From assembly GCA_016218665.1 (NCBI GenBank), contig JACRDI010000019.1, positions 62,001-126,000 on the forward strand: a stretch of 64,000 bases of DNA, given 5' to 3'. Position numbers and translations under genes: made by a program. Source of the stretch: Desulfovibrio sp. (GTDB taxonomy: Bacteria; Desulfobacterota; Desulfovibrionia; Desulfovibrionales; Desulfovibrionaceae). Position 1 is the stretch's first letter. The number at the start of each line of letters is the position of its first letter. Of the stretch, positions 27,680 through 44,078 are shown piece by piece. Below the pieces are notes generated by a model. That model had not been told where the DNA came from. It saw nothing but the letters and a program-made list of their open reading frames with translations, and ran no database searches.

Positions 27680-28639
27680 CTACCTCAAGTACGTGTCCAC
27701 GCTGTCCATGCGATTGTGCGCGATCTCATTCGCCACGGACTGCTTCGCTTCCTCATGAGACATGCCGGCCTCGACCGCCTCGTGCATTCGTTCCTGCGCG
27801 AAACTGTGCTTCAAGCCATGCGTGCCCCGGCCAGGCGCATACTGCCCCGTCGCCCTGGCGGCGGCTTCCACGGCCCGCAAAAACGTGCGGTACGGCGAGG
27901 CGAGTTGGCCGTGTTCTACGATGTGCCCTTCGAGTTCGCGGTACGTCGACGGCTGCACAAAGTGCTCGGTGTGCTTGCCGCCCTTTTCCGTGACCGTGAT
28001 GCGGCCGACGGAAGCGCCGGAGACCGGGTCCGTGCCGAGCCCCAGCAGGTTCGTGGACGTGAGCGGGTTGCTGCCGCGCGCCGGAGCGCCGACGCCTTCA
28101 GTTCGGCAGCCCGTTTCACCCATGAGCTTGGCCTGCAGCCGCAGCGCAGGCTCGGGAATCGCGGCGTAGAGTCCCTCCGGGTCGGGATACGCGCGCGAGG
28201 CGTAGCCGTTTGAACGCGCGGAAAGCTCGGCTCGCCAGTGCGCCTTCTCCTCCGCCAGGACGGTCCGTATGTCCGCCGCCGGTTCACCGCCGTGGCGCTC
28301 CGCGTACACGTCGAGGGCGTGGGAGAGCTTGGTGAGCGCGGATATTTCGCGCTCCAATGTCTGAAACGAGCCGCCTGCGTTGCGCAGCGCCTGGCCACGG
28401 CTTGCGATATACGTGCGGACAAACCCGGAGACGCGCTGCGCTTGGCGAAGGTCGCGCAGTCCGGCGCGCTGCAGGAACTCCACGAAGCGATGAATGTCAC
28501 TCCGATAGACGCCCCAGGTGCCGATGCCTCGGATGAAGCGCCAGTCCACTGTGCCCTTCTTCTTGCCAATGGCGCGGATGCCGCCAAGAAGCGCTTCGGC
28601 TTGCGAGTGCAGCGATTTCGGCCACCTGTTTGTTCCCAT
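27680..28639 (-). CDS. Tyrosine recombinase/integrase-like protein
   Basis: A 319-residue protein with an N-terminal SAM-like DNA-binding part (RSDIHRFVEFLQRAGLRDL) and a C-terminal catalytic-like domain. Candidate catalytic residues are Arg179 (ETGCRTEGVG), Lys219/222 (TVTEKGGK), His274 and His278 (THGLKHSF), His308 and the nucleophile Tyr317 (DSVDTYLR). The second catalytic Arg of the usual H-x-x-R is Lys277 here. Activity may therefore be altered, or it may be an accessory recombinase. The start at 28639 has AAGGA nine bases upstream. It heads a minus-strand operon. Confidence 0.75.
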   Translation of the reverse strand: MGTNRWPKSLHSQAEALLGGIRAIGKKKGTVDWRFIRGIGTWGVYRSDIHRFVEFLQRAGLRDLRQAQRVSGFVRTYIASRGQALRNAGGSFQTLEREISALTKLSHALDVYAERHGGEPAADIRTVLAEEKAHWRAELSARSNGYASRAYPDPEGLYAAIPEPALRLQAKLMGETGCRTEGVGAPARGSNPLTSTNLLGLGTDPVSGASVGRITVTEKGGKHTEHFVQPSTYRELEGHIVEHGQLASPYRTFLRAVEAAARATGQYAPGRGTHGLKHSFAQERMHEAVEAGMSHEEAKQSVANEIAHNRMDSVDTYLR

Positions 28640-28843
28640 CTTGTTGTCCTTCTTTCCGTTACGATCCGTTCGGCCGCCTGGTCCGTTGAGTAGTGTGCTC
28701 TTTCTACAGGCTGGGCCTGCGCGCCGATCTTGTCGGCATGTGCGCCAGGTCTTTTCCTGGTGCCGGCGGTAGCAACTCCGCCGATCCATCTTCCCTGCAG
28801 CTCCTTCTGCAGGTGGTTCTGGACTGGACCATCCGTTGGTTCT

Positions 28844-28861
28844 GCTCACGATATCGTGAGC
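28844..28861. promoter_or_regulatory. 18-bp perfect palindrome upstream of tyrosine recombinase gene
   Basis: GCTCACGATATCGTGAGC is identical on both strands. It lies 205 bases upstream of the recombinase-like gene. It is a candidate operator for a dimeric regulator or a recombinase binding site. Confidence 0.5.
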
Positions 28862-29075
28862 GGTTCGGGGCCTGCGCGGCGACTCAATGGTCGCCACAAA
28901 CACCTTGGAGAGCGCTTCAGCCATCCCGTCCAGCAGGCGGCCGTTCACGAAGCACAATGCTTCGAAGCTCAAAGCAAAACAGAGGCACAGAGTAGTCTGC
29001 GCCATGGCCAGAAAAAAATGCAAGTGCCGGAGAATGGGTTTTGAAGGACGCGGCGAAATTGGCGGGAATGAAATC

Positions 29076-29121
29076 CTGTCCGGTTTTGTTGACAGGACGA
29101 GCCGTCAACAAAACCGGACAG
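29076..29121. repeat. 18-bp perfect inverted repeat with 10-bp spacer
   Basis: CTGTCCGGTTTTGTTGAC and its exact complement flank the spacer AGGACGAGCC. The arms are AT-richer than the surroundings. There is no T-run placement suited to a simple terminator. The arm size suits a recombinase crossover or resolution site, or the end of a mobile element. Confidence 0.7.
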
Positions 29122-29420
29122 CAGCGGAGGCTTCGCAGGTCGGATCGGATGGGAAGAGTGCGCGCGTCGGTGCGCGGTCATTGTGCGCAGGCCAGTGCGT
29201 GCTGCCGCTGCTCGCACTGGCTTCTTTGAGCCAGCAGTTGCATCGGCGAGGAATAGGGCCTCTCTTTTTCTGACGCGTGCGGTTGCGCCACGTGTGGCAC
29301 ACAGCCGGCAACCCGTCCAGGCTCCACTGTGTCTCCGCTGGCACAGGGCGTCGCCGCCCCACCTGCCCAGACATTGGCATATCCACCTAGAATACAACAG
29401 TAATACTCGGGCATGATCGA

Positions 29421-29437
29421 CTGGCATGTGCTTTGTA
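29421..29437 (+). promoter_or_regulatory. Sigma-54 (-24/-12) promoter of glpX-prk-cbbM-cbbY
   Basis: CTGGCATGTGCTTTGTA fits the consensus YTGGCACGNNNNTTGCW at most positions: GG of the -24 element, TTG of the -12 element and exact spacing. Transcription would start about ten bases downstream, giving a leader of about 40 bases before glpX. A sigma-54 activator gene lies in the same cluster. Confidence 0.65.
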
Positions 29438-29488
29438 CTGCCGGGGGCAGGATTTCCCGCAACGCCCCCCTGGGCAAGGAGAACGCGT

Positions 29489-30478
29489 ATGAGACAGCAA
29501 ATGTCGACTCGCCATCTGGCAGTGGAGCTGACCGCCATCACCGACGCCGCGGCCCTGGCCTCGTATTGCTGGCTGGGCATGGGCCGTAAGAAGTCCGGCG
29601 ACAAGGCCGCAGTGGACGCCATGCGCCGGGGCTTCATGGAAATGGATGTCGACGGCATCGTCGTCATCGGCGAGGGCGAGAAGGACGAGGCCCCCATGCT
29701 CTACAACGGCGAGCGCGTGGGCACGGGCAAAGGCCCCCGCGTCGACGTGGCCGTGGATCCGGTGGAGGGCACGCGCCTTTTGGCTCTGGGCCGCCCCAAC
29801 GCCATTGCCGTTGTGGCCCTGGCCCCGCGCGGCACCATGTTCGACCCCGGACCGGCCTTCTACATGCAGAAGCTGGTTGTGCCGGAACAGGCGCGCGGGC
29901 TGGTGGACATCAACGCCCCGGTGGGCCGCACCCTGGCCATCGTGGCCGAGGCCCTGGGCAAGAAGGTGCGGGATCTCGTGGTCTTCGTGCTGGAGAAGGA
30001 CCGCCACTCCCGGCTCATCGAAGACATCCGCTCCGCCGGGGCGCGCATCCAGCTGCACACCGACGGCGATGTGGCCGGGGCCATCATGGCCGTCATGCCC
30101 GGCACCGGCGTGGACCTGATGCTGGGCACTGGCGGCACGCCGGAAGCCGTGCTGGCCGCCGTGGCGGTCCGCATCCTTGGGGGCGAGATGCAGGGTCGGC
30201 TGGACCCGCAGTCGCCCGAGGAGGCCCAGGCCGTGAGCACGGCAGGGCTTTGCACCGCCCGCGTGCTGCGCACCGAGGATCTGGTCGGCAGCGACGACAT
30301 CCTCTTCGCCGCCACGGGCATCACCGATGGCACCTTCCTTTCCGGCGTGACCCGCACCGAGGAAGGCATACGCACCTGTTCGCTGGTCATGAGCGGAACC
30401 TCGCGCACCGTGCGCCGCATCCAGTCCGTGTACACGCCCCTCCGCATGAGCCTGCTTGAGGCGCAAGCCTGCGCCTAG
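29489..30478 (+). CDS. glpX: Class II fructose-1,6-bisphosphatase (GlpX type)
   Basis: Hydrolyses fructose-1,6-bisphosphate, and in autotrophs often also sedoheptulose-1,7-bisphosphate, in the Calvin cycle. The protein has 329 residues. Motifs are [16 protein letters not shown], the metal site [37 protein letters not shown] and [11 protein letters not shown]. The start at 29489 follows AAGGAG; the frame is open further upstream but lacks a ribosome-binding site there. It is the first gene of the plus arm of the CBB cluster, 29 bases before prk. No separate SBPase is visible, which supports a dual role. Confidence 0.95.
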
Positions 30479-30507
30479 CCGGACAGAACCCGGCAAGGAC
30501 ATACATC

Positions 30508-31434
30508 ATGAAACGCACGCGTCCCATCCTTCTCGGCATCGTCGGCGACTCGGCCACGGGCAAGACCACCATCTCCGCGGGCATAGAGAACATCCTCGGC
30601 CCGGAGCGGGTGACGAACCTCTGCTCGGACGACTACCACAAGTACAACCGCGTCCAGAGACGGAAGCAGGACATCTGCGCCCTGCACCCGGACTGCAACC
30701 ACATCGACATCATGGAGCACAACTTCCACCAGCTGCGCCGCGGCGAGGCCATCCTGAAGCCGGTGTACAACCACGCGACCGGCGACTTCGACCCGCCGGT
30801 GTACGTGAAGCCCAGGGAGTTCGTCATCATCGAGGGGCTGCTCGGCTTTTACAACCAGGCCATGCGCGACGCCTTCGACGTGAAGATCTACCTGGACCCC
30901 CAGGAAGAGCTGCGCGTGGACTGGAAGTTCAAGCGCGACACCGTGAAGCGCGGCTACACCCGGGAGGAGGTGCAGGCCTCCCTGGATCGCCGGACCGATG
31001 TCTCGGTCAACTACATCCGCCCCCAGCGGAGATTTGCGGACATCGTGTGCAGCTTTTTCCGGCCCGAGGGCGCCAGCGAAGAGACCGGCACGCACCTGAA
31101 CACCAAGCTCATCCTGCGGCCCACCATCCAGCACCCGGATTTCGCCGAGTTCATCGACCAGCGGCCGGGAGTGAAGGAGAAGTGCCTGACCATCACCCTG
31201 GGCCGCGACGAAGGCCTGCCCGTGGATATTCTGCAGATCACGGGCACCATCAAGCCCGTGACGGCGGAAACGCTCATGGACATCATCATGGACCACTTGA
31301 GCGGCGTGGAGCCCCTGAGCACGGACAAGGTGGGCACCTACATGGAAGGCGCCGAGGAGAAGCGCAGCTATCCGCTCGGCATCATGCAGCTCTTGACCTG
31401 CTACCACCTGCTCAACGCACGCACGCGCATCTGA
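30508..31434 (+). CDS. prk: Phosphoribulokinase
   Basis: Makes ribulose-1,5-bisphosphate, a diagnostic Calvin-cycle step. The protein has 308 residues, in the range of bacterial class I enzymes. The Walker A loop is GDSATGKTT (residues 14-22), followed by [10 protein letters not shown], the [12 protein letters not shown] segment and [10 protein letters not shown]. The absence of paired regulatory cysteines typical of chloroplast enzymes fits bacterial regulation by other means. It lies between glpX and cbbM, and its specific presence argues that the RuBisCO serves CO2 fixation and not only nucleotide salvage. Confidence 0.96.
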
Positions 31435-31460
31435 CTGCCCCGTGCAACAAGGAGACGACC

Positions 31461-32852
31461 ATGGCCATATTCGATCAGAGCAGCCGCTACGTGAATCTGG
31501 ACCTCAAGGAGAGCGGGCTTGTCGCCGGCGGCCGGCACGTGCTGTGCGCTTATGTCATGAAGCCCAAGCTGGGCCACGGTCCGCTGGAGATCGCCGCGCA
31601 TTTCGCCGCGGAGTCCTCCACCGGCACCAATGTGGAGGTGTGCACCACGGATGATTTCACCCGCGGGGTGGACGCCCTGGTGTACGAGGTCATTCCCAGG
31701 GGCAAGCTCGAGGCGCTGGTGAAGATCGCCTTCCCGCTGGAGCTCTTCGACCGCAACATCATCGACGGCAAGGCCATGCTGGCCTCGTTCCTCACCCTGT
31801 GCATCGGCAACAACCAGGGCATGGGCGACCTGGAGTACTCCAAATTGCACGACTTCTACGTGCCCCCCGCGTACCTCGCGCTCTTCGACGGCCCGGCCAT
31901 GAACATCGTGGATTTCTGGCGCGTGCTGGGCCGGCCGGAAGAAAACGGCGGCATGATCGTGGGCACCATCGTGAAGCCCAAGCTGGGCCTCCGGCCAGCG
32001 CCCTTCGCCGAGGCCTGCTACCGTTTCTGGCTTGGCGGCGACTTCGTGAAGAACGATGAACCGCAAGGCAACCAGGTTTTCGCCCCGCTGAAGGAGACCA
32101 TCGCCGCCGTGGCCGAGGCCATGCGCCGCGCACAGGACGAGACCGGCCAGGCCAAGCTCTTCTCGGCCAACATCACGGCCGACGATCCTGCGGAGATCAT
32201 CGCCCGGGGCGAATACATCCTCAAGACCTTCGGCGAGAACGCCAGCCACGTGGCCTTCCTTGTGGACGGATACGTGGCCGGACCCACGGCGGTGACCACG
32301 GTGCGCCGCAACTTCCCCGGCCAGTTCCTGCACTTTCACCGCGCCGGGCACGGGGCCGTCACCTCGCCGCAGTCCAAGCGCGGCTACACGGCCTTCGTGC
32401 TCTCCAAGATGTCGCGGCTGCAGGGGGCGTCCGGCATCCACACGGGCACCATGGGCTTCGGCAAGATGGAGGGCGCGCCCGAGGACAAAGCCATCGCCTA
32501 CATGCTGGAGCGCCAGGACGCCCATGGTCCGTACTTCCGGCAGCAGTGGCACGGCATGAAAGCGACCACGCCCATGATCTCCGGCGGCATGAATGCCCTG
32601 CGATTGCCGGCCTTCTTCGACAACCTGGGGCATTCCAACGTCTGCCAGACCTCCGGGGGCGGGGCCTTCGGACATCTGGACGGCCCCACGGCCGGGGCGC
32701 TCTCGCTCCACCAGGCCCACGACGCCTGGCGCCAGGGCGTGGATCTGGTGGAATACGCCAAGGGGCACAAGGAGCTGGCCAGGGCCTTTGAGTCCTTCCC
32801 CGGCGACGCGGACCTCTACCACCCCGGCTGGCGCGCGCGCCTGAACCTGTAG
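31461..32852 (+). CDS. cbbM: Form II ribulose-1,5-bisphosphate carboxylase/oxygenase
   Basis: Carboxylates ribulose-1,5-bisphosphate. The protein has 463 residues and is close throughout to the Rhodospirillum rubrum form II enzyme (dimeric, no small subunit). The active-site Lys lies in [11 protein letters not shown] (about residue 172), the carbamylated Lys in [12 protein letters not shown] (about 197, with Asp and Glu metal ligands), and loop 6 in [17 protein letters not shown] and [11 protein letters not shown] are present. The ATG at 31461 follows AAGGAG, 26 bases after prk. Form II enzymes have poor CO2/O2 discrimination, which suits an anaerobe. Confidence 0.98.
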
Positions 32853-32866
32853 TTCCTTCCTGCCTT

Positions 32867-32900
32867 GCCGGCGGCGCGTGCGTGCGGACGCGCCGCCGGC
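32867..32900 (+). repeat. Intercistronic stem-loop between cbbM and cbbY
   Basis: A 13-bp perfect stem (GCCGGCGGCGCGT and complement) with an eight-base loop. No T-run follows, so it is more likely an mRNA-stabilising or processing hairpin than a full terminator. Confidence 0.6.
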
Positions 32901-32923
32901 CCCTTGCGGATACGGAGGAGCCC

Positions 32924-33685
32924 ATGCCACTTGGGGCCTTGCTGTGGGATATGGACGGAACCCTGGTGGACAGCGAGGAGCTGCACCGGCTGGCCTTCAA
33001 TCAGGCCTTTGCCCAGGCGGGGCTGGAGCTGCGCTGGGGCCGCCGGGAATACCGGGATCTGCTGGCCGTGGCCGGAGGCAGGGAGCGCATCCGCCACGCC
33101 CTGGCCGCCCGGCCGGACCTTTGCGCCCAGGCCGCGCGCCTGGATCTGGCCGCCCTGCACCGCCGCAAGACCCGGATTTTCGGCGCGCTGCTGGCCGGGG
33201 CGACCACCCTCCGGCCCGGCGTGGCCCGGCTCCTGCGCCAGGCCGAGGCCGCGGGGCTCCGGCAAGCCATTGTCACCACCACCAGCGCGGCCAATGTCGA
33301 CATCCTGCTGGGCACCCACCTGCGCGCCGTGGATGTGCGCTTTGCGGCCATGGTCACCGGAGAGGACGTGGCGGCCAAGAAACCCGCGCCCCACGCCCAC
33401 CTGCTGGCCCTGGCCCGCCTGGGCCTGGAGTCCGACGACTGCCTGGCCCTGGAAGACTCGGGCAACGGCCTGGCCGCCGCCCGCGCCGCGGGCATCCCCA
33501 CCCTCGTCACCTGGAACGCCTACACCGAGGAGGACGACTTCTGCGGGGCCCTCGGCGTGCTGGACCACCTGGGCGAGCCGGGCAAACCCTGCCGGCAGCG
33601 CTCGGGGACGCCCCTGGGCGGGCCCTGCGTGAACCTCGAGGACCTGCGCGCCTGGCATGGCAGCCTGCCCCGCGCGGCGGGCTAG
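32924..33685 (+). CDS. cbbY: CbbY-like HAD phosphatase
   Basis: A 253-residue HAD-superfamily hydrolase of the CbbY type. In autotrophs CbbY removes xylulose-1,5-bisphosphate, a by-product that inhibits RuBisCO. Motif I is LLWDMDGTLVDSEELH, motif II TTTSA, motif III the Lys in VAAKKPAPH, and motif IV ALEDSGNG. The start at 32924 follows ACGGAGGAG. Its stop and that of the convergent regulator gene share the bases CTAG. The context beside cbbM supports the repair role, though HAD specificities are hard to tell from sequence alone. Confidence 0.88.
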   Translation: MPLGALLWDMDGTLVDSEELHRLAFNQAFAQAGLELRWGRREYRDLLAVAGGRERIRHALAARPDLCAQAARLDLAALHRRKTRIFGALLAGATTLRPGVARLLRQAEAAGLRQAIVTTTSAANVDILLGTHLRAVDVRFAAMVTGEDVAAKKPAPHAHLLALARLGLESDDCLALEDSGNGLAAARAAGIPTLVTWNAYTEEDDFCGALGVLDHLGEPGKPCRQRSGTPLGGPCVNLEDLRAWHGSLPRAAG

Positions 33686-35061
33686 AGGCCCAGACGCTTC
33701 ATCTTGCGGTACAGGGTGCGCCTGGGAATGCCTGAAAGCCGCGCGGCCTCGCTCACGTTGCCTTCGGCTTGGCGCAGGAAGCGCTCCAGCTCCTTGCGCT
33801 CGAAGTTGGTCATGATCCGGCTGCGGCGCTCGGCATAGGAGTCGTCCAACGCCTCCGGGCCGTCCTCCGCCACCGGAACCTGGACCGCCATGCCCTGGCC
33901 GTTGCCTCTGACCGGGGCGATGGCCAGGTCCGCGCTGCGGATGAACCCGTCGCGGCAGAGGATGGCCGCGCGCTCGATGACATTCTCCAGCTCGCGCACG
34001 TTGCCGGGCCAACGGTAGGCCTGCATGAGCCCAAGCGCATCCTCGTCGATGCCCGCGATCTTTTTGTTCAGCTTGGCCTCGGCCTTGGTGACGAAGTGGT
34101 AGGCCAGGTAGGGCAGATCCTCGGCGCGCTCCCGCAGGGGCGGCAGGGTGATGGTGAAGGCGTTGAAACGATAGAACAGGTCGCGGCGAAAGGCGTCGCT
34201 CTCCACCGCGCCGTCCAGGTCGCGGTTGGTGGCGGCGATGACGCGGACCCGCACCGTGCGCGTAACGGTGTCGCCCACACGGCGCACTTCGCCAGTCTGC
34301 AGAAAGCGCAGCAGCTTGGCCTGCAGTTCCCGGCTCATGTCCCCGATCTCGTCCAGAAACAAGGTGCCGCCGTCGGCCTCCTCCAAGAGGCCCGGCCGGT
34401 CGCACTCCGCGCCGGTGAAGGCACCCTTGCGGTAGCCGAACAGCTCGCTTTCCATGAGGTTCGCCGTGAAGGCCGTGCAGTTCACGGGCACGAAGGGCTT
34501 GTGGCGCAGTGGGCTGGTCTGGTGGATGCTTCGGGCGGCCAGGTCCTTGCCCACCCCGGTCTCGCCCAGAAGCAACACCGTGGTGGGCGTGGGGGCCACG
34601 CGCTCGATGAGCTCGGCCACAGCCCGGATGCCTGGCGACTTGCCCACCATGCGCCCCCCCGCGCCGGCGCGCAGAGCCGGGTCGCGGCCTGCGGCCATAA
34701 GCCGGGTGCAGCAGGCGTTGCCCTGCTGGGCGTCCAGGGCGAGCAGGCGCACCAGCCGCGCCCCGGCTCCGGAGAGGATCACCGCCCCGGCCGGCCGCGC
34801 CTCCTCCAGGCTCCGGGAGGTGCGCTCGTCGCCCGAGGCGTCCACGATGAGGTGCAGGCCCTCGGCTTCGGCCAAATCGTTCAGAGCGGCCACCAGGGGC
34901 AGCTTCAGCTCCCTGGACAGCGTGAGGCTCGAGGGCTCCGAACGCGGGTCCAGCAGGCCCGCGAGCTCCACGCCCGGAATCTCGCGCAGAGCCGCCACGA
35001 AGGGCCCGCAGGTTCTGCCCGCGCCGACCACCAGCACCTTGATTGTGGCGTCAGTCCACAC
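33682..35061 (-). CDS. Sigma-54-dependent enhancer-binding regulator with Rossmann-type N-terminus
   Basis: A 459-residue activator. The N-terminal domain (about 1-110) begins [19 protein letters not shown] with a downstream DPRSEP and [10 protein letters not shown], a dinucleotide-binding Rossmann pattern like oxidoreductases, not a receiver or GAF domain. The AAA+ domain follows: Walker [16 protein letters not shown] loop ([12 protein letters not shown]), Walker [11 protein letters not shown], and arginine-finger region DLFYRFN. The C-terminal Fis-type helix-turn-helix is [18 protein letters not shown]. It lies 70 bases behind gap and probably controls both CBB arms. Confidence 0.93.
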
Positions 35062-35131
35062 AACCGCTCCCTCTTCGGCGGATTCCCGCCCCGGGCCAGG
35101 GGCTCCGACTGGTGGGAAGCGCCGTCTCCTT

Positions 35132-36115
35132 TCAGTTCAGCGCGGCAGCCTTTCTGATCAGCCGCAGCAGCTGGTTGGTGAAGCCGGACTCGTTGTCGTA
35201 CCAGACGATGAGCTTCACCTGGGTGCCGCCGATGACGTTGGTGAGCCCGGCGTCCACCACGCCGCCGAAGGTGCTGCCCACGAAATCCGAGGAGACCAGC
35301 GGCTCCTCCGTGTAGCCGAAGGACTCGTTGGCCGCGGCCTGCATGACGGCGTTGACCTCTTCCCTGGTCGTGGCGCGCCCCAGCTCGCAGGTCAGGTCCA
35401 CGATGGAGACGTCGGGGGTGGGCACGCGGATGGCGAAGCCGTCCAGCCGGCCCTTCATCTCCGGAATGACCAGGGACAGGGCACGGGCGGCGCCGGTGGT
35501 GGTGGGGACTATGTTCAGGGCCGCGGCGCGGGCGCGGCGGATGTCCTTGTGGGAGCCGTCGTGCAGGCGCTGGTCCATGGTGTAGCTGTGGATGGTGGTC
35601 ATGAGCCCGTGCCGGATTCCGAAGGCGCTGTGCAGGGCCTTGACCGCCGGGGCGAGGCAGTTGGTGGTGCACGAGGCGCTGGAGATGATCCTGTGCTCGG
35701 GCCTGAGGTCGGCGTCGTTGACGCCCACCACGATGGTCGCGTCCATCTCCTTGCCCGGGGCGGAGAGGATGACGCGCCTGGCGCCGCAGGCGAGGTGCGT
35801 GCTGCAACCGGCGCGGTCGTTCAGCTTGCCCGTGGACTCGATGACGATGTCGCAGCCAAGATCCTTCCAGCTCCATTCGCCCGTGGCGAAGCGGGTGACG
35901 ACAACCTGGCGGCCGTCGAGCAGAAAGCCCTGCCCGTTGCCCTCCACGCGCGGGAAGGGCCCGTGCACGGAGTCGTATTTCAGCAGGTGCGCAAGGTCCT
36001 TGTTGGTGGCGCGGGCGTTGATGACCGCCAGCTCCAGGTCCTTGTCGTCCGCCAAAAGGCGGGTCAGGCAGCGGCCGATGCGGCCGAATCCGTTGATGCC
36101 GATTCTCGTCGCCAT
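35132..36115 (-). CDS. gap: Glyceraldehyde-3-phosphate dehydrogenase, NADP-type (GapB-like)
   Basis: Reduces 1,3-bisphosphoglycerate in the Calvin cycle direction. The protein has 327 residues with GINGFGRIGR at the N-terminus and the catalytic Cys in SSASCTTNCLAP. After the second beta strand the sequence is VINARATNKDLAHLL: the Asp that marks NAD-only enzymes (as in INDLLD of E. coli GapA) is replaced by Ala34, as in the NADP-using GapB of Bacillus. An anabolic, NADPH-using enzyme is therefore likely. The start at 36115 follows AAAGGAG. It lies between rpe and the regulator. Confidence 0.94.
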   Translation of the reverse strand: MATRIGINGFGRIGRCLTRLLADDKDLELAVINARATNKDLAHLLKYDSVHGPFPRVEGNGQGFLLDGRQVVVTRFATGEWSWKDLGCDIVIESTGKLNDRAGCSTHLACGARRVILSAPGKEMDATIVVGVNDADLRPEHRIISSASCTTNCLAPAVKALHSAFGIRHGLMTTIHSYTMDQRLHDGSHKDIRRARAAALNIVPTTTGAARALSLVIPEMKGRLDGFAIRVPTPDVSIVDLTCELGRATTREEVNAVMQAAANESFGYTEEPLVSSDFVGSTFGGVVDAGLTNVIGGTQVKLIVWYDNESGFTNQLLRLIRKAAALN

Positions 36116-36348
36116 GAGGGACTCCTTTGCGCCCGTGCGAGCGCGTGCTCAAAACATACGTTTTTGCCCGGCCGGGGCCACAAGAATTCCACCAACGGCC
36201 GGGGACCGGGGCCGAATGGCCGTCTTGCCCCGCCGCCCGGCTCCCTCCGGGCGCACGCTCAATAATTTCAAGCGGTTGCCAGCATGCGTTCCCCAGGGGG
36301 GAGCGCCCTGGCGCCGTGGGGCGCGCCAGTGGACGAGCTTTCGGCCGT

Positions 36349-37062
36349 TCACCGAGACGAATCGCCCGTTTGCGGCTGGATTTCCGCTGGTTGGCGCCCT
36401 GCCGCCATCTGGAACGCCGCCAGCCGCTCGGCATAGGGCGGGTGGCCGAAGAAGGCCGAGCCCGAGACCAGCACGTCCGCCCCGGCCAGCACCAGCTCGC
36501 GCGTGTTGTCCAGAGTCACGCCGCCGTCCACCTGGATGAGGGCCGCGCTGCCGCATTCCGCGACCATGGCCTTGAGCCGGCGCACCTTGTCCAGGCAGAA
36601 CGGAATGAACGACTGCCCGCCGAAGCCGGGGTTCACGCTCATGAGGAGCACCATCGAGAGCTGGGGCAGCAGGTGCTCCACCTGGCAGAGCGGGGTGTGT
36701 GGGTTGAGCGCCACGGCCGGCCGGGCTCCGCAGTCGCGAATGAGCGACACCACGCGCTCCAGATGCCGCTCGGCCTCGGCGTGCACGCATATGAGGTCCG
36801 CCCCGGCCTTGGCGAAGTCCGGCACGAAACGGCCGGGGTTCTCGATCATCAGGTGCACGTCGAAGAACAGGCCGCTTTTTTTCCGACAGGCGGCGATGAC
36901 CGGCGGGCCGAAGGTGATGTTGGGCACGAAGGCCCCGTCCATGACGTCCCAGTGGACCCATGACAGGCCCGCCGCCTCCAGGGCGGCCAGTTCCTCGCCC
37001 AGGCGGCTGAAGTCCGAGGACAAAAGCGAGGGCGAAAGGATCATGTGCTGCGTCGCGGGCAT
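36349..37062 (-). CDS. rpe: Ribulose-phosphate 3-epimerase
   Basis: Converts xylulose-5-phosphate to ribulose-5-phosphate. The protein has 237 residues with the TIM-barrel signatures LSPSLLSSDFSRLGEE, WVHWDVMDGAFVPNITFGP, FFDVHLMIENP, SVNPGFGGQSFIP and IQVDGGVTLDN. The acid/base aspartates and metal His residues are conserved. In the minus CBB arm it follows fba by 16 bases. The start is placed at 37062; an internal Met (MILSPSLL) six residues later is an alternative. A 233-base gap separates it from gap. Confidence 0.95.
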   Translation of the reverse strand: MPATQHMILSPSLLSSDFSRLGEELAALEAAGLSWVHWDVMDGAFVPNITFGPPVIAACRKKSGLFFDVHLMIENPGRFVPDFAKAGADLICVHAEAERHLERVVSLIRDCGARPAVALNPHTPLCQVEHLLPQLSMVLLMSVNPGFGGQSFIPFCLDKVRRLKAMVAECGSAALIQVDGGVTLDNTRELVLAGADVLVSGSAFFGHPPYAERLAAFQMAAGRQPAEIQPQTGDSSR

Positions 37063-37078
37063 GGCTTCCTCCTCCGGC

Positions 37079-38146
37079 TCAGGCGTTCAGGGGCGCGCCG
37101 TAGTGGTGGCTGGCGTAGCGCTCGGCCATCTCGGCCAGGGGGCGCGGCCGGATGTCCCCGGCCCGGCCCGCGGAGCCGAAGTCCACGAAACGCTCGCGGC
37201 ACAGGCCGCGCATGGCGGCTTGGGCGGCGGCCAGGAACTTCCTGGGGTCGAAGTCCGAGGGATTCTCGGCCAGGTGGCGGCGCGCGGCCCCAGTGGCGGC
37301 CAGGCGCAGGTCCGTGTCGATGTTCACCTTGCGCACGCCGTTCCGGATGCCCTCCTGGATCTCTGCCACGGGGACGCCGTAGGTCTGCTTGATGCCGCCG
37401 CCGTGGGCGTTGATGACCGCCAGCCACTCCTGCGGCACCGAGGACGAGCCGTGCATGACCAAGTGCGTGTTGGGGATGGCCCGGTGGATGGCCTGCACGC
37501 GGCGGATGTCCAGCACCTCGCCCGTGGGCGGACGGGTGAACTTGTAGGCCCCGTGGCTGGTGCCGATGGCGATGGCCAGGGCGTCCACTCCGGTCTTCTT
37601 CACGAAGTCCGCAGCCTGGTCCGGGTCGGTGAGCATCTGCTCTCTGCTCAGCCTGCCCTCGGCGCCCACGCCGTCCTCCTTGCCGGCCGTGGCGGTCTCC
37701 AACGAGCCCAAAACGCCCAGCTCGCCCTCCACGGACACCCCGCAGGCGTGGGCCACGGCGCACACGCGCTGCGTCGTCTCCACATTGTAGGCATAGTCCG
37801 CCGGGGTCTTGGCGTCCTCCTTCAGGGAGCCGTCCATCATCACCGAGGAGAAGCCCGACTGGATGGACCGGGCGCACACGGCCAGCGAGGAGCCGTGGTC
37901 CTGGTGCAGGCACAGGGGGATGTGCGGCCACTGTTCCAGGGCGGCCAACACAAGGTGGCGCAGGAAGGGCTCGCCCGCGTACTTGCGCGCTCCGGCGCTG
38001 CTTTGCAGGATCACCGGGCTGTCGGTCCCGTGGGCGGCCTCCATGATGGCGCGCACCTGCTCCATGTTGTTCACGTTGAAGGCGGGCACGCCGTAGCCGT
38101 GCTCGGCGGCGTGGTCCAAGAGCTGTCGCAGGGAGATCAAGGTCAT
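37079..38146 (-). CDS. fba: Class II fructose-bisphosphate aldolase
   Basis: Condenses triose phosphates to fructose-1,6-bisphosphate and, in the Calvin cycle, erythrose-4-phosphate and DHAP to sedoheptulose bisphosphate. The protein has 355 residues. Zinc and active-site motifs are [50 protein letters not shown] and [13 protein letters not shown], the CbbA-type class II pattern. The start at 38146 follows GGAGGAAG; the large open frame upstream in this phase is a shadow of pgk. It lies between pgk and rpe. Confidence 0.95.
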
Positions 38147-38186
38147 GGGCTTCCTCCGGGAAGGCTTGCGGTTTGGGACTGCCGGG

Positions 38187-39362
38187 CTACAGGGCGCGTT
38201 CTTCCAAGGCGACCAGGGCGGGCAGCCGCTTGCCCTCCAGAAGCTCCAGGAAGGCGCCGCCGCCGGTGGAGATATAAGAAATGCCGCCGGCCACGCCGAA
38301 CTTGTCGATGGCCGCCAGGGTGTCGCCGCCGCCGGCCACGGAATAGGCCGGGCTCTCGGCCACGGCCAGGGATACGGCGCGGGTGCCCTGGCCGAAACGC
38401 TCGCACTCGAACACGCCCACGGGCCCATTCCAGAAGATAGTGGCCGAGTCCCGCAATATCTCGGCGTAGCGGCGGCAGGTCTTTTCGCCAATGTCCAGGA
38501 TCATCTCCCCCTCGGCGATCTCCCCGGCGCGGCGCTCCACCGCCGGGGCGTCGTCGGAGATGGCCCTGGCGCACACGGCGTCCTCGGGCAGGGGGATGTC
38601 CACCCCGGCGAGCCTGGCCTCGCGCAGGATGTCCCGGGCCTCTTCCAGGAGCTCCGGCTCGAAGAGCGAAGCGCCCACGGGTTGGCCCGAGGCCGCCAGG
38701 AAGGTGTTGGCGATGCCGCCGCCCAGGATGAGCCGGTCCACCCGGCCAAGCAGCGCGTGCAACATGCTGAGCTTGGTGGAGACCTTGGACCCGCCCACGA
38801 TGGCCGTCACCGGCCGGGCCGGGGCGCGCAGGGCCAGGCCCAGGGCGCGCAGCTCGCGCAGCAGGAGCGGCCCGGCGCAGGCCACCGGGGCGTAGCGCGC
38901 CACGGCGCTGGTGGAGGCGTGGGCGCGGTGGGCCGAGCCGAAGGCGTCCATGACGAACACGTCGCACAGCCGGGCCATGCGCCGGCCAAGCTCGGGGTCG
39001 TTGGCCTTCTCCCCGGCGTTGAAGCGCACGTTCTCGGCCATGGCGATTCCGCCGGGCCGCAGGTCCACGCCGTCCAGCCAGCGGCGCTCCAGGCGGATGT
39101 GCCGCCCGAGCAGGCAGGACAGCCGCTCCGCCACGGGAGCCAGAGAGTACTGCGGATCGTAGAAGCCCTCCCTGGGTCGGCCCAGGTGCGAGAGCAGCAG
39201 CACGGCCGCTCCGGCCTCCAGGGCTTGGCGGATTGTCGGCAGGGCGGCCCGCAGGCGGGCATCGTTCTGCACCCGGCCGTCCTTCACCGGCGCGTTCAGG
39301 TCCAGGCGGATGAGCACCCGCCGGTTCTTGAGCTTCTGGTCGTTCATGGTCCGCACGTTCAT
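38187..39362 (-). CDS. pgk: Phosphoglycerate kinase
   Basis: Phosphorylates 3-phosphoglycerate with ATP. The protein has 391 residues, normal for PGK. Signatures: [65 protein letters not shown] and [14 protein letters not shown] with [14 protein letters not shown]. The start at 39362 overlaps the tkt stop by four bases (ATGA); an internal Met at 39347 is an alternative. The very long open frame upstream in this phase is antisense/shadow to tkt. It probably serves as a dedicated autotrophic copy, as other glycolytic genes would lie elsewhere. Confidence 0.95.
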
Positions 39363-41413
39363 GCCTCCTGCCCTCCCTGGTTGCGCGCGCCGGCAGGTTC
39401 CCGCCGCGCCTTGCGATCCCTGATGAGCTGGCGGGTGGCCTCGGCCACGTGGCCAGCGGTGATGCCGAAGTGCTGGAAGAGCGCCTCGGCCGGGGCGGAC
39501 TCGCCGAAGCGGTCCAGGCCGATGACCGTGCCCCGGCAGCCCACGTACTTGTACCAGCCGGCCGTGGCCCCGGCCTCCACCGCCACCACCACCGGCGCGG
39601 ACGGGGACAGCACCGCTGCCCGGTAGCACTGGGGCTGGCTGTCGAAGACCTCCAGACAGGGCATGGACACCACCCGCGCCAGGTGCCCCTCCGCTTCCAG
39701 CAGGCGCGCGGCCTGCACGGCCAGGGCCACCTCGGAGCCCGTGGCCAGAAGCACGGCCTCGGGTTGGCCGGGGCAGTCGCGCAGGATGTAGCCGCCGCGC
39801 TGCACCAGGTTGAGCGTTTTGCCCGGACGGGACTGGTGGGGCAGACCCTGGCGCGAGAGGATGAGCGCCGTGGGCCCGTCCGTCCGCTCCACGGCGGCGC
39901 GCCAGGCCACGGCCGTCTCCACGGCGTCGCAGGGGCGCCACACATGCACGTTGGGCATGAGCCTGAGCGAGGCCGTGTGCTCCACCGGCTGGTGCGTGGG
40001 GCCGTCCTCGCCCACGCCGATGGAGTCGTGGGTGAGCACGTGGATGACCCGCAGGCCCATGAGGGCGGCCATGCGCAGGGCGCTGCGCGAATAGTCGGAG
40101 AATACCAGGAAGGTGCCGCCGTAGGGGATGAACCCACCGTGCAGGGCCAGCCCGTTCATCATGGCCGCCATGGCGAACTCGCGCACGCCGTAGTTCAGAG
40201 AGTTGCCCTTCCAGCCGGGGGGCATGGCCGCCACCGAGCCGGACCAGCGCGTGAGATTGGAGGAGGCCAGATCGGCCGAGCCGCCCACGAGTTCCGGCAG
40301 GTGCGGGGCCAGGGCTTCGATGGCCTGCTGGGAGGCCTTGCGCGTGGCCGGACCGGCGGCGGTCTTGTCCGTCTGCTGCAGGAGGTCCTCCGCCACCGCG
40401 ACGAAGTCGGCCGGCAGCGCCCCGTTCATGCGTCGGGCGAACTCGGCGGCCAGATCCGGGTGCTTGCACGTGTAGCGCACGTAGAGATTCTGCCAGGCAT
40501 CCTCGGCCATGCGACCGCGCTCACGCGCGTCCCAGGCGGCATAGACCTCCGCCGGGACACTGAAGGGCTCGTGGGGCCAGCCCATGTGCCCCCGCGCGCA
40601 GGCAATCTCGGCCTCCCCCAGGGGCGAGCCGTGGCACTTGGCGCTGCCGCAGACGCCTGGCGCGCCCTGGCCGATTTTCGTGCGGCAGCAGATGAGGCTC
40701 GGCCGTCCCGTCTCGGCCCTGGCGCGGCGGATGGCCGCCTTGATCTGCCTGGGGTCGTGGCCGTCCACCCCGGCCTCCACATGCCAGCCATAGGCCTCGA
40801 AGCGCTTCGGGGTGTCCTCGGTGAACCAGCCCTCCACGCAGCCGTCGATGGAGATGCCGTTGTCGTCGTAGAAGGCGATGAGCTTGCCGAGCTTGAGCGT
40901 TCCGGCCAGGGAGCAGGCCTCGTGGGACAAGCCCTCCATCATGCAGCCGTCGCCCAGAAACACGTAGGTGAAGTGGCTCACCAGCTCGAAACCGCGGCGG
41001 TTGAAATGGGCGGCCAGAAGCCGCTCGGCCACGGCCATGCCCACGGCGCAGGCGACGCCCTGCCCCAGCGGGCCGGATGCCGACTCCACCCCGGGCGTGA
41101 CGCGGTACTCCGGGTGCCCCGGCGTGCGCGAGCCCAGCTGGCGGAAGCTCTTCAGATCCTCCACGCCCAGGTCGTAGCCACTCAGGTGCAGCAGGGTATA
41201 GAGCAGCATGGAGGCGTGCCCGTTGGAAAGCACGAACCGGTCCCGGTTGGGCCAGTCCGGGTTGGCCGGGTTGTGGCGCAAGAAGTCGTTCCAGAGCACC
41301 TCGGCGATGTCGGCCATGCCCAGCGGCGCGCCCGGATGCCCGGATGCGGCCTTCTGAACGGCGTCCATGCACAGGGCGCGCAGGGCGTTGGCGAGGGTCT
41401 TGCGGTCGGGCAT
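39359..41413 (-). CDS. tkt: Transketolase
   Basis: Thiamine-diphosphate enzyme of the regenerative phase of the Calvin cycle. The protein has 684 residues. Signatures: [54 protein letters not shown], the ThDP/metal motif [18 protein letters not shown] ending in [10 protein letters not shown], and [18 protein letters not shown] in the pyrimidine-binding domain. The start at 41413 follows AAGGAGG. It leads the minus arm after a 43-codon frame, and pgk starts inside its stop. It depends on thiamine, whose thiazole gene thi4 also lies in this window. Confidence 0.97.
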
Positions 41414-41436
41414 GGCGTCCTCCTTGATGTGGCGGG

Positions 41437-41568
41437 TTAGAAAAGCCGGGCGTACAGCCGCCCATACAGGGCGCACAAACTCAGGGCCGGGGCGGAGGGC
41501 AGGCCGCATTCCTTGAGCCGGCAGTACACGTGCAGGGGATTCAGCAGATGGCGCAACGACTCTTTCAT
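41437..41568 (-). CDS. 43-residue small protein ahead of tkt
   Basis: A short frame encoding [18 protein letters not shown], then [20 protein letters not shown] and YARLF. It has a strong ribosome-binding site (AGGAGG, six bases before ATG) and lies 23 bases before the tkt start, within the leader of the sigma-54 transcript. The basic, Leu/Tyr-rich sequence with two or three cysteines looks amphipathic. I recall similar NPLHVYCRL peptides in Desulfovibrio genomes, unverified. It could be a small accessory protein or a leader peptide. Confidence 0.6.
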
Positions 41569-41603
41569 GGTGTCCTCCTGTGGCCTTGATTCCGCCGGGA
41601 AGA

Positions 41604-41620
41604 ATCAAGCCCCGTGCCAG
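41604..41620 (-). promoter_or_regulatory. Sigma-54 (-24/-12) promoter of the tkt-pgk-fba-rpe-gap arm
   Basis: On the minus strand CTGGCACGGGGCTTGAT matches YTGGCACGNNNNTTGCW at all key positions except one base in the -12 box. Spacing is exact. The start would lie about 25 bases before the 43-residue frame. Together with the plus-arm promoter and the nearby activator gene this supports joint sigma-54 control. Confidence 0.7.
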
Positions 41621-41780
41621 GGCGCGGCAGCCCTGAAACTTTCAATTCCATTTCAGCATGTTACGCATGAAACAAGGCGAGAGGCGCCCCGTGGCGGAAC
41701 CCCGCAGCTGTGCCACGCCTGGCCCACCTGCGGGGCCGGGGCCGGGCGCTTTGCGCCGGAGGTGGCACAGGCCGGACAGG

Positions 41781-43001
41781 CTAGCGGCGGAAGAAGTTCA
41801 GGTAGGAGAACAGGTCGTTCAGCTCTTCCGATGGCAGGGCCGAGCCGATGAGCACGCCGGAGAGCCAACCGGCGTTGTGCGGCCGGCGGGCGGCGCTGCG
41901 GATGAGGCTGCCGATGGACTTGGGCGTGCGCAGGGAGAGCAGCCTGCCGGAGAGCTCCAGGCCCGGGCCAAGCGCGCGCCAGAGCCTGCCCGGATAGGAC
42001 AGCAGGGCGTCTGCCCCGGCCTCGCCCGTGCGGCAGGCCTCGGCCGCCACTTCGGCGGCGATGTGCGCGGAGATGAGCGCGTTGGCCACGCCCTCGATGC
42101 TGCACGGGGTGGCGAGGCCTGCGGCGTCGCCCACCAGCAGGAAGCCCTCGCCGTGCACCTCGCGCAGGGGATTGCCAACGGGCAGCAGGCGCACCTTGGT
42201 GCCGCCGTAGCGCTGGGCAAAGGCGAAGCGTTCCTTGAGCGAAGGCGCCTCCAGGGCTTCCTCCAGGGCCCGCTTCACGTGCAGGCGCTTATCCAGGCAG
42301 GCGCGCAGGGGCAGGGCCAGACCCACGTTGGCCAGGCTGGAGCGCGTGGGGTGCACCCAGACATAGCCCGGCAGCACCGCTTCCGGAAAATGGATTTCGA
42401 TGTGGCTGCGCAGGCCGATGACTTGACTGTAGTAGGCCTGGGCCGCGATGACCCGGTACTCCGAATAGCGCGGCAGACCCATGCGGCGGGAGAGGAAGGA
42501 GTTCGCCCCGTCCGCGCCGATGAGCAGCGTGGCCGTGAGGGTCTCCATGCGGCCGGCCCCGCTGTCCACCACGATCCCGCAGGCGCGGCCGCCCTCGGTG
42601 AGCACGTCCACGGCCCGGCACCAGTGCCGCACCGTGACGTTCTCCAGCTCCTTCGCCGCCAGGAACAGCATCTCGTCGAAGAGCACGCGGTGGCAAATCA
42701 TGCTCGCGGCGCGGCTGGCGCTGTCGATCTTGAGGACCGGCACGGTCACTGAGGAGCCATCGGGGGCGTGGAAGCCGATTTGGCTCACCGGCACGTGGTC
42801 CAGGTCCAGCAGGCGGTCCTCCAGGCCCAGCTCGCGCACGTGGGCGATGACCGCGGCGGACAGGGCGTCGCTGCAGACCTTGTCGCGCGGGAAGGTACGC
42901 GCGTCGATGAGCAGCACGCGCAGGCCATTACGCCCCGCGTGCAACGCGGTGGCGCTGCCGGCCGGGCCCGCGCCGATGATGATGAGATCGAAATCCGGCA
43001 T
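41781..43001 (-). CDS. Geranylgeranyl-reductase-family FAD-dependent oxidoreductase
   Basis: A 406-residue flavoprotein of the GGR/FixC-like family, which reduces isoprenoid chains or related substrates. The FAD-binding motif is DLIIIGAGPAGSATALHAG (about 5-24), followed by FPRDKVCSDALS, LIGADGANSFLSRRM, and GEGFLLVGDAAGLATPCSIEGV, all typical. The start at 43001 follows CAGGGAG. Substrates in anaerobes include menaquinone side chains and lipids; which applies here is unknown. It stands next to the Calvin cluster but has its own orientation gap of 212 bases, so linkage to CO2 fixation is not shown. Confidence 0.88.
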   Translation of the reverse strand: MPDFDLIIIGAGPAGSATALHAGRNGLRVLLIDARTFPRDKVCSDALSAAVIAHVRELGLEDRLLDLDHVPVSQIGFHAPDGSSVTVPVLKIDSASRAASMICHRVLFDEMLFLAAKELENVTVRHWCRAVDVLTEGGRACGIVVDSGAGRMETLTATLLIGADGANSFLSRRMGLPRYSEYRVIAAQAYYSQVIGLRSHIEIHFPEAVLPGYVWVHPTRSSLANVGLALPLRACLDKRLHVKRALEEALEAPSLKERFAFAQRYGGTKVRLLPVGNPLREVHGEGFLLVGDAAGLATPCSIEGVANALISAHIAAEVAAEACRTGEAGADALLSYPGRLWRALGPGLELSGRLLSLRTPKSIGSLIRSAARRPHNAGWLSGVLIGSALPSEELNDLFSYLNFFRR

Positions 43002-43589
43002 GCGTCTCCCTGGGTCATTTCTCCGCCGCCTCGGACCAGGGGCGGCGGCAAGGCTTTGCCCAGCCCCCGCCCTGGCCAACGGGGGGATGTGCCACCGGTG
43101 GCACTTGGTGCCGCTCTTCCCAGGATGTTACAAAACCTGTGCCGTGGCAATTACGCTCAAACCGTCGGACTCACGCATGAGGAAAGGCGCCTTGTCAGTC
43201 GACCGGAGGATCTCTGCGCTTGGCCAAGCAGACGAGTGTACCCGCTTCCAGATGATATCGCCATCCCTTCCCGAGCAGGGAGAACGTGTAGTTTGGAGGA
43301 GCCTCCTTAAACTGGCGTAAACGGTGAAGTTCGGGCTGGACCAAGCCCGCCGTACTGCTTCTTCCAGCGATAAAACGGCTAACCCTGCACGAAGCGATTC
43401 GCGAGCGCCAACAGTGGCCAACGCTGTGCTTGGCGGCGTGTCCGGTTCAATTGAGGGCTACTCCACTTGAGAGAGTTATTCCAAAGATTGCCATACCCTA
43501 TTCTCCATCATGATTTGTAATGACATCCCCTCATTGATCTGCTACGTAGAGGCTCACCAATGGTAACCGTTATTGACTGGGAGGAAACC
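43002..43589. other. Intergenic region of lower GC without a supported gene
   Basis: Some 590 bases between the flavoprotein gene and the cytochrome gene. Composition shifts from GC-rich to mixed at about 43110. Short frames on both strands show no recognisable domain. A small hairpin CGGGCT/AGCCCG lies at 43332-43349. The shift marks the left edge of the cytochrome/chemoreceptor module, perhaps an insertion boundary; no transposase or direct repeat was found. Confidence 0.45.
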
Positions 43590-44069
43590 ATGAGGAGATA
43601 TCTGCGATTGATTGCAGCAACCTTTCTCTGCTTTGCAATTCCGCCAGCGACCATTTCTATGGCAGCGAATGGCAATACAAGATACGTCGGTTCAACAGTT
43701 TGCAAGGATTGCCACGATAAAGAATATGCCACCTTTGTTAAATTCTCAAAAAAAGCTCATTCAGACAATAGCATTAAAATCATGGCAAAAAAGTTGTCTC
43801 AGGAAGAACTTCGTGAATGCTTTAGTTGTCATACTACTGGCTACGGCCAGCCCGGAGGGTTTGTAGGCTTCGAACAGACGCCGGATCTGGCATACGCCGG
43901 CTGCGAGGTCTGCCACGGACCCGGCTCGGCTCATGTGGATTCGGGGGGAAAAAAGAATCTCATTCTTGGAAATGGGCGTATGAACATGAAGAATTGCGAG
44001 AAGTGTCACAACTCTGAGCGCGTGGCCAACTTTCGGTTCAAACCTATGCTCTACGGCGGAGCCCACTAG
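43590..44069 (+). CDS. Exported tetraheme c-type cytochrome (c554-like)
   Basis: A 159-residue periplasmic cytochrome. Residues 1-25 or so are a signal peptide (LRLIAATFLCFAIPPATISMA). Four CxxCH heme sites are present: CKDCH, CFSCH, CEVCH and CEKCH, with HTTGYG and VCHGPGSAH context typical of the cytochrome c554 family. The start at 43590 follows GAGGAAACC. It lies nine bases upstream of a heme-binding chemoreceptor gene and is probably co-transcribed with it. It may pass electrons to, or set the redox state of, the receptor heme; that is inference. Confidence 0.92.
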   Translation: MRRYLRLIAATFLCFAIPPATISMAANGNTRYVGSTVCKDCHDKEYATFVKFSKKAHSDNSIKIMAKKLSQEELRECFSCHTTGYGQPGGFVGFEQTPDLAYAGCEVCHGPGSAHVDSGGKKNLILGNGRMNMKNCEKCHNSERVANFRFKPMLYGGAH

Positions 44070-44078
44070 GAAGTGACC

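Follow-up and report, generated by a model that had tools for sequence, protein, structure and literature searches.

Gene content of the cbb cluster

The window, a stretch of 64,000 nucleotides (contig C12:62001-126000), belongs to genome G000, a metagenome-assembled genome (MAG) of 2.85 Mb in 45 contigs that is 84% complete and whose genus is taken as Humidesulfovibrio. Here and below, G, g, L and C stand for genome, genus, locus and contig. The window carries a Calvin-Benson-Bassham (CBB) gene cluster in two convergent arms: fbp, prk, cbbM and a HAD-family phosphatase gene on the + strand, and the genes from a regulator to tkt on the - strand. The regulator is a sigma-54 enhancer-binding protein (EBP; 33682-35061, -) that passes the Pfam cut-off for sigma-54 activators, and a pair of palindromes with a sigma-54 promoter element precedes each arm. 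An earlier sequence-only reading of the locus had proposed the two convergent arms and a regulator of their own, and both are borne out.

Seven enzymes of the cluster score above their NCBIfam cut-offs: fructose-bisphosphatase (FBPase), phosphoribulokinase (PRK), RuBisCO, glyceraldehyde-3-phosphate dehydrogenase (GAPDH), the epimerase, the aldolase and transketolase. The + arm begins with fbp for a class II (GlpX) FBPase (open reading frame (ORF) 29426-30478; TIGR00330, 355.7 bits against a cut-off of 259.3). Its true start is probably the ATG at 29489, since the ORF from 29426 overlaps the promoter element. The next gene, prk (30508-31434, +), encodes a PRK of the PRK07429 subfamily (370 bits against a cut-off of 236), whose nearest solved structure is a cyanobacterial PRK. 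The PRK15453 kind was ruled out at 40 bits against a cut-off of 362. The cbbM gene (31461-32852, +) encodes a form II RuBisCO with 832.3 bits against the form II model cut-off of 489. This protein aligns along its full length with solved form II enzymes, which are its best structure matches, and it keeps the active-site motifs. The arm ends with the CbbY/CbbZ-like phosphatase gene (32882-33685, +). A phosphatase gene is thus present as the sequence-only reading had it, but its naming as CbbY is tentative: the protein passes the general HAD-IA model only and falls below the cut-off of every equivalog model among 25 of 29 families.

On the - strand, the regulator gene is adjoined by gap (35132-36115), which encodes a type I GAPDH with the cofactor motif NARATN. 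The motif reads NARA[TDE]N in all nine cluster GAPDHs read and sits where, as we assume, NAD enzymes carry an aspartate. The type I assignment stands, and the proposed NADP type is suggested by this motif. Then come rpe for ribulose-phosphate 3-epimerase (36349-37062), fba for a class II aldolase of type B (37079-38146), pgk for phosphoglycerate kinase (PGK; 38187-39362) and tkt for transketolase (39359-41413). The PGK matched one model, that of the bifunctional PGK/TPI, over residues 1-388 of 391; the match is full-length but below the cut-off (434 bits against 883). A second transketolase, 48% identical, is encoded on contig C22 of the same genome.

A RuBisCO with its catalytic residues and a PRK, the pair that marks the CBB cycle, are both encoded, and the family models confirm their joint presence in an essentially complete gene set. 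Triosephosphate isomerase (TPI) and ribose-5-phosphate isomerase (RPI), which the sequence-only reading had thought could come from housekeeping copies, are found elsewhere in the genome: TPI on contig C27 and RpiB on contig C22. Each occurs in 10/10 genomes searched, the window genome among them. The regeneration set of PGK, GAPDH, TPI, aldolase, FBPase, transketolase, epimerase and RPI is therefore fully encoded, with sedoheptulose-bisphosphatase (SBPase) activity of the GlpX enzyme assumed.

The sigma-54 promoters and paired palindromes

The fbp control region holds two palindromes 44 bp apart (29284-29301 and 29328-29345, +), here called upstream activating sequences (UAS). A sequence pattern of the sigma-54 -24/-12 type, TGGCATGTGCTTTGT, lies further on (29422-29436, +). 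The tkt control region has two such palindromes 43 bp apart (41709-41769, -) and the -24/-12 element TGGCACGGGGCTTGA (41605-41619, -), again recognised by its sequence pattern. The palindrome consensus is TGTGYC-N6-GRCACA. The layout was first seen by eye in three Humidesulfovibrio fbp control regions and then tested in other arms. The test allowed a spacing of 40-45 bp, up to four mismatches per palindrome (five in total) and, 70-149 bp beyond the pair, a -24/-12 element in which a single mismatch was tolerated.

By sequence, this architecture precedes the target operons in 21/21 arms, namely 11/11 fbp arms and 10/10 tkt arms, which are all those whose upstream region was covered by the sequences compared. 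In every case, the palindromes are 40-44 bp apart with at most two mismatches each, and the -24/-12 element lies 81-108 bp beyond the second. None of 300 first-order Markov sequences per region equalled the observed set in any arm. The 21 arms span six genus codes (g1, g5, g8, g10, g46 and g25) in two families; they share ancestry and do not represent 21 independent events. The tkt arms of G303, G302 and G235, the fbp arms of G302 and G001, and all arms of G051 and G028 lay outside the test. Of the 15 exact occurrences of the motif in ten cbb-positive genomes, 11 lie in fbp control regions. CRP-type sites have the spacing TGTG-N8-CACA. CRP-type palindromes were rejected for the window since the spacing here is TGTG-N10-CACA.

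These elements move the borders of the cluster, which had been placed at 29421 and 41620. That interval holds the core; however, the unit starts at the UAS at 29284, the tkt control region reaches 41769, and a gene for a geranylgeranyl-reductase-family FAD oxidoreductase (ggr; 41781-43001, -; TIGR02032, 175.5 bits against a cut-off of 158.8) extends it to 43001. This FAD gene adjoins tkt in 9/10 tkt arms. An extra UAS-like palindrome with one mismatch is found upstream of it (43088-43105), with no clearly placed sigma-54 element. Just past the cluster, at 43560-46103, a c554-type cytochrome gene is followed by a gene for a PAS-containing chemotaxis receptor.

The sigma-54 activator and its N-terminal domain

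The regulator consists of a weakly Rossmann-like region (residues 1-134), an AAA+ domain with the GAFTGA motif and a Fis-type HTH, which is the make-up of a sigma-54 EBP. All 12 copies read have both Walker A and G[AS]FTGA. A profile of residues 1-134 was searched against 348 Desulfovibrionales genomes; in most genomes listed, only 12 of the first-look candidates were scored, and misses are possible. Strong matches (E < 1e-39) were found in 13 genomes and weak ones (E 8e-8 to 1e-3) in 14 more. A strong match is present in 11 of the 12 genomes with cbbM versus 2 of the 336 without it. The cbbM genome that has no strong match is G051, which carries only a fragment of cbbM. The two genomes with a strong match and no cbbM are G235, where a short contig holds fba, rpe, the regulator gene and the start of fbp, and G028. 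In G028 (L169:4628-6940), the regulator gene is directly followed by a PRK gene, between TRAP and ABC transporter genes. A UAS-like palindrome pair is also seen there upstream of the ABC-type genes (L169:12518-12579).

The N-terminal domain gives weak matches to Rossmann families in the nine members compared: Gfo/Idh/MocA in five, NAD_binding_3 in two and DapB_N in one. Among solved structures, YbtU, DapB and Rex are matched at E values from 0.008 to 1.2. Only L10, G13, G30, D38 and L107 are invariant over nine sequences. D38 lies at the position where, we presume, NAD-specific Rossmann folds carry an acidic residue. Because of the weak NAD(P)-binding family matches and the invariant Asp38, the N-terminus suggests a Rossmann domain that possibly binds NAD(H).

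A 43-residue ORF before tkt

The interval between tkt and its sigma-54 promoter holds an ORF of 43 residues (41437-41568, -) with a strong Shine-Dalgarno sequence. Neither Pfam nor NCBIfam gives a match to this ORF. The ORF precedes tkt in 9/10 clusters and was not found in G077. Fourteen residues are invariant by eye (M1, R6, H7, N10, P11, L12, H13, C16, R17, G22, A28, C32, Y35 and Y39). Uncorrected pN/pS is 0.19-0.55 over nine pairs, with the highest value in a near-identical pair. No convincing further copy was found in the sequences compared, where other matches had E >= 0.12. A conserved C-terminal cysteine pair is the hallmark of CP12. Identity with CP12 was rejected for the small ORF: of C16, C21 and C32, C21 is missing in 2/9 sequences, and there is no Pfam match.

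Gene order and inversion of the fbp arm

In eight carriers (G009, G014, G293, G303, G264, G280, G222 and G220), fbp-prk-cbbM-HAD runs in the same direction as the regulator gene. The window block from fbp to the HAD gene (29284-33685) is inverted relative to these. At the junction, the HAD and regulator genes meet with overlapping stop codons (CTAG). The two convergent arms of the window can thus be explained by an inversion of the fbp-HAD block, with each arm retaining its own control region. G077 is rearranged differently. An on/off inversion switch of the block was considered and rejected, since none of the 25 longest of 104 inverted pairs in 28000-36500 frames it. With no framing repeat among these pairs and a separate promoter set for either arm, a single past rearrangement or an assembly join (a MAG mis-join) is likelier.

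The cbbM gene is part of the fbp arm in nine of the ten genomes with full-length cbbM. The genes cbbM, prk, fbp, tkt, fba, rpe and gap remain clustered in five genera. No pgk match was present in the fetched stretches of G222, G220 and G077.

Distribution and phylogeny

Among the 348 Desulfovibrionales genomes, 12 carry cbbM, 10 of them above the form II cut-off; they belong to five genera in two families. Within Humidesulfovibrio, cbbM is found in 3/15 genomes (G000, G009 and G014). A further member, G001, shows no cbbM or strong regulator match; one of its contigs, of 5.6 kb, carries ggr, the small ORF, tkt and a portion of pgk. In G051 (L010:157-5115), a 193-residue cbbM fragment, a HAD gene and a cluster-type aldolase gene were found with no strong regulator match, and this locus is perhaps a decaying cluster.

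The form II tree, rooted at its midpoint, contains 87 sequences: the best 80 of at least 574 relatives, six Desulfovibrionales loci and the window. The ten full-length Desulfovibrionales cbbM sequences cluster with the Desulforamulus putei (Bacillota) sequence in a single group (100/98) amid mainly Pseudomonadota sequences. G009 and G014 are separated from G000 in the cbbM tree (100/93) and in the concatenated cbb tree (86/87). The dsrA tree likewise separates them (98/98), in a group with four cbb-negative species. The cbb proteins within Humidesulfovibrio are more diverged than dsrA in 3/3 pairs. These data indicate either that the cluster is an old possession that was lost several times or that it moved between members of the genus; the former is favoured, since the cbb and dsrA trees both part G009 and G014 from G000.

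Gene transfer is indicated for G264 (g8), since its cbbM is 90.5% identical to that of G293 and 91.6% to that of G280 (both g5), far above the dsrA identities of 75.7% and 73.5%. In Desulforamulus putei (L014), cbbM is 80% identical to that of the window and lies inside the Desulfovibrionales group, and the PRK is only 34% identical. Exchange of cbbM alone between the two phyla is possible.

CbbR-like genes

Bacterial CBB operons are usually described as controlled by CbbR, a LysR-type regulator, and its gene is often found just upstream of cbbM. The window has no LysR gene among its cluster genes and none beside cbbM. In G051, a LysR-type gene (L010:1578-2561) lies beside the cbbM fragment; it is interrupted, with HTH_1 and LysR_substrate in two pieces. 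Relatives of its first piece are a gene that diverges from cbbM in G077 (L112:9516-10460), at 80% identity, and genes in many cbbM loci of Pseudomonadota, at 29-50% identity; the latter often lie immediately upstream of cbbM. G051 and G077 belong to another family of the order than Desulfovibrionaceae. No match to this CbbR-like gene was found in the window or in the other Desulfovibrionaceae cbb loci compared; the comparison was of the loci, and cbbR elsewhere in the genomes was not sought. In G077, sigma-54 sets precede fbp-prk-rpe and tkt, and cbbM-HAD lies apart with the LysR gene. Because G077 keeps a CbbR-like gene beside a separate cbbM, these arrangements suggest that the sigma-54 system replaced CbbR in Desulfovibrionaceae. 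G077 may represent an intermediate in this take-over.

Host physiology markers

The dsrA gene is found on contig C8 of the window genome and is above the cut-off in 19/20 genomes searched. In the twentieth, G004, only a contig-edge fragment and weak matches were present. At the level of this marker, the assignment of the host as a sulfate reducer, which had been given as probable, holds. Acetyl-CoA synthase (PF03598) was found in 0/10 genomes including the window genome, with a model whose controls matched only two archaea.

Proposed mechanism

Three things can be read directly from the DNA: the gene content, the promoter architecture of all 21 arms, and the joint occurrence of the regulator with cbbM. 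Together they lead us to propose the following model. The cluster would be expressed as two transcription units, fbp-prk-cbbM-HAD and small ORF-tkt-pgk-fba-rpe-gap-regulator, each arm forming one transcript that opens with a sigma-54 promoter. The activator, whose gene closes the second unit, would bind the palindrome pair located about 80-150 bp ahead of each promoter, and would open the promoter through ATP hydrolysis. Its Rossmann-like N-terminal domain, possibly by binding NAD(H) and otherwise by sensing another metabolite, would gate this activity. The cell would then produce its CO2-fixation enzymes under reductant-rich conditions, such as on H2, and it is plausible that the cycle supports autotrophic growth. 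In Desulfovibrionaceae, this sigma-54 system would have taken the place of the usual CbbR.

As a whole, a complete CBB set under a dedicated, redox-gated sigma-54 activator in a sulfate-reducing Humidesulfovibrio is in our judgement the probable reading of the locus. A more far-reaching version is rather doubtful. It holds that Desulfovibrionales have a module of their own in place of CbbR, in which the activator reads NADH/NAD+ for both arms and the 43-residue protein regulates transketolase, GAPDH or PRK post-translationally.

Several observations weigh against the proposed model. Genome-wide, the exact palindrome motif is no commoner than its reversed control: the cbb-positive genomes, ten in number, have 15 occurrences versus 12, and the twelve genomes examined that have no cbbM (G001 included) have 8 versus 17. 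The motif is special by its location and not by its genome-wide number. In G077, the fbp arm does not contain cbbM, and sigma-54 control of RuBisCO itself fails there. G028 has the regulator and prk, yet no RuBisCO match in its genome. In addition, rpoN was not found in the 84% complete window genome. It was found in 7/8 genomes searched, that is, in all seven other cbb genomes, with G000 as the exception. In G009 and G014, rpoN lies 88-97 kb beyond the TPI gene on the same contig. Since contig C27 of G000 ends 2 kb past its TPI gene, the missing rpoN is likely a gap in the assembly.

Alternative explanations

One alternative concerns the identity of the ligand. The N-terminal domain could bind another ligand such as a sugar phosphate or ribulose-1,5-bisphosphate (RuBP) instead of NAD(H), or it could be a degenerate interaction domain. 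With only five invariant positions over nine sequences and with weak family matches, this is a serious contender, if still short of an even chance. The window domain scores 19.1 bits against a Pfam cut-off of 24 and thus falls outside the curated NAD(P)-binding Rossmann families. Conservation of the glycine motif breaks down in genera g10 and g25, and ribosomal protein S2 is the top-scoring match in the structure profile search. The remaining weak matches, however, are largely NAD(P)-binding Rossmann proteins, and the invariant D38 presumably takes the place of the acidic residue of NAD-specific folds. A different question is what the cycle is used for. It could serve as an electron sink or mixotrophic supplement that rebalances reductant, with sigma-54 and redox sensing serving that end, and not as the basis of autotrophy. 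The patchy occurrence (12/348 genomes of the order, with relatives living without the cluster), the possible NAD binding by the regulator and the second transketolase for ordinary metabolism would all fit. The conservation of cbbM, prk, fbp, tkt, fba, rpe and gap as a group in five genera, with pgk unmatched in three genomes as noted above, speaks for the full pathway instead. The absence of acetyl-CoA synthase, a marker of another autotrophic route, from the ten genomes points the same way; this search covered that marker and not the reductive glycine pathway. On this balance, the electron-sink role seems rather unlikely.

Two further alternatives were weighed. The palindromes could be bound by another protein while the linked activator controls something else. 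The assignment of the regulator to the palindromes comes from sequence analysis, and Desulfovibrionales can have many sigma-54 activators, with 37 in D. vulgaris according to the accessible text of one study (PMC4641369). Against this stand the pair and promoter in every arm examined, the presence of the regulator domain in 11/12 cbbM genomes and the departure from the CRP-type spacing, and we regard a different binding protein as improbable. Least probable of all is a recent arrival of the cluster with the neighbouring mobile island, as the sequence-only reading had thought plausible. A large serine recombinase gene (23812-26088) lies beside fbp, and near fbp there are also a tyrosine-recombinase-like ORF with a weak Pfam match (27680-28639, -) and a palindrome with 18-bp arms (29076-29121). 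Beyond ggr, the G001 remnant is flanked by a related ORF (L154:4493-5590, 57% identical over 207 residues) and a similar palindrome. But two congeners, G009 and G014, carry the cluster, and the stretches compared from them have no match to the three island proteins tested. The separation of these two genomes from G000 in both the cbb and dsrA trees, and the larger divergence of cbb proteins in all three pairs, also speak against a recent island-linked transfer into this lineage. Six ORFs on the left flank of the window have no family match and lie on the opposite strand to predicted genes or in other frames.

Comparison with known systems

The Calvin cycle in sulfate reducers is itself known, and the bare finding is less new than the sequence-only reading had implied. 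As far as the accessible text goes, Thermodesulfovibrio autotrophicus and strain TK110 (Nitrospirota) are sulfate reducers with a Calvin cycle in which six other carbon fixation pathways were undetected (PMC12501866). Their RuBisCO is of form III, whereas that of the window is a form II enzyme in Desulfovibrionales, and the accessible text does not describe how their cycle is controlled. In its accessible part, a survey names Thermodesulfobium narugense and Dissulfurimicrobium hydrothermale as having Calvin-cycle genes and reported autotrophy (PMC12999727). Autotrophy in D. desulfuricans is supported by the reductive glycine pathway according to the available text (PMC7547702), and PMC12316311 makes no mention of RuBisCO or Calvin.

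Sigma-54 regulation near related genes has some precedent. In Thioalkalivibrio thiocyanoxidans, a sigma-54 EBP gene is located six genes upstream of RuBisCO, and the authors suggest a role of sigma-54 (PMC5744179). This resembles the window in the proximity of an EBP to RuBisCO genes. However, the case rests on proximity and co-upregulation, and UAS or promoters on the cbb operon are not described in the accessible part of that text. The organism is also a sulfur oxidiser with large and small RuBisCO subunits and carboxysome genes, unlike the window. Closer in organisation is the sigma-54 regulome of D. vulgaris Hildenborough, whose accessible text describes operon-linked EBPs, for one of which a palindromic site is predicted ahead of a conserved sigma-54 promoter, as in the window (PMC4641369). 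Its main text does not mention RuBisCO, Calvin, Rossmann or NAD. In the open-access literature, as far as its texts were accessible and with subscription papers and preprints not covered, no report was found of a Calvin operon under sigma-54 control, nor of a Desulfovibrionales form II RuBisCO.

The new part is the regulatory module together with the small ORF, neither of which the sequence-only reading had described. If the more far-reaching version of the model is true, no Calvin cycle wired as an all-or-none, redox-gated sigma-54 regulon would have been known before. Control by a conserved, dedicated sigma-54 activator, with paired enhancers for either arm, would amount to a separate solution, ATP-driven and silent when off. 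Such control would illustrate how anaerobic sulfate reducers run a pathway that is known best from oxygen-tolerant autotrophs. Desulfovibrionales would gain a second candidate autotrophic route besides the reductive glycine pathway, and this route is directly testable, also in G280, G293 and G264, which are carriers with finished or near-finished genomes.

Proteobacterial form II cbb operons, such as those of Rhodobacter capsulatus, are regulated by CbbR of the LysR family. The window form II RuBisCO is 78% identical to that of R. capsulatus, whose gene also lies near tkt, gap, fba, rpe and a CbbY-like gene. By contrast, the window PRK has no match in the R. capsulatus stretches. Unlike R. capsulatus, the window also has the 43-residue ORF and the FAD reductase gene, and its host genome has dsrA. 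The R. capsulatus stretches match the CbbR-like LysR gene, whereas the window has a sigma-54 activator, paired UAS and -24/-12 promoters on both arms.

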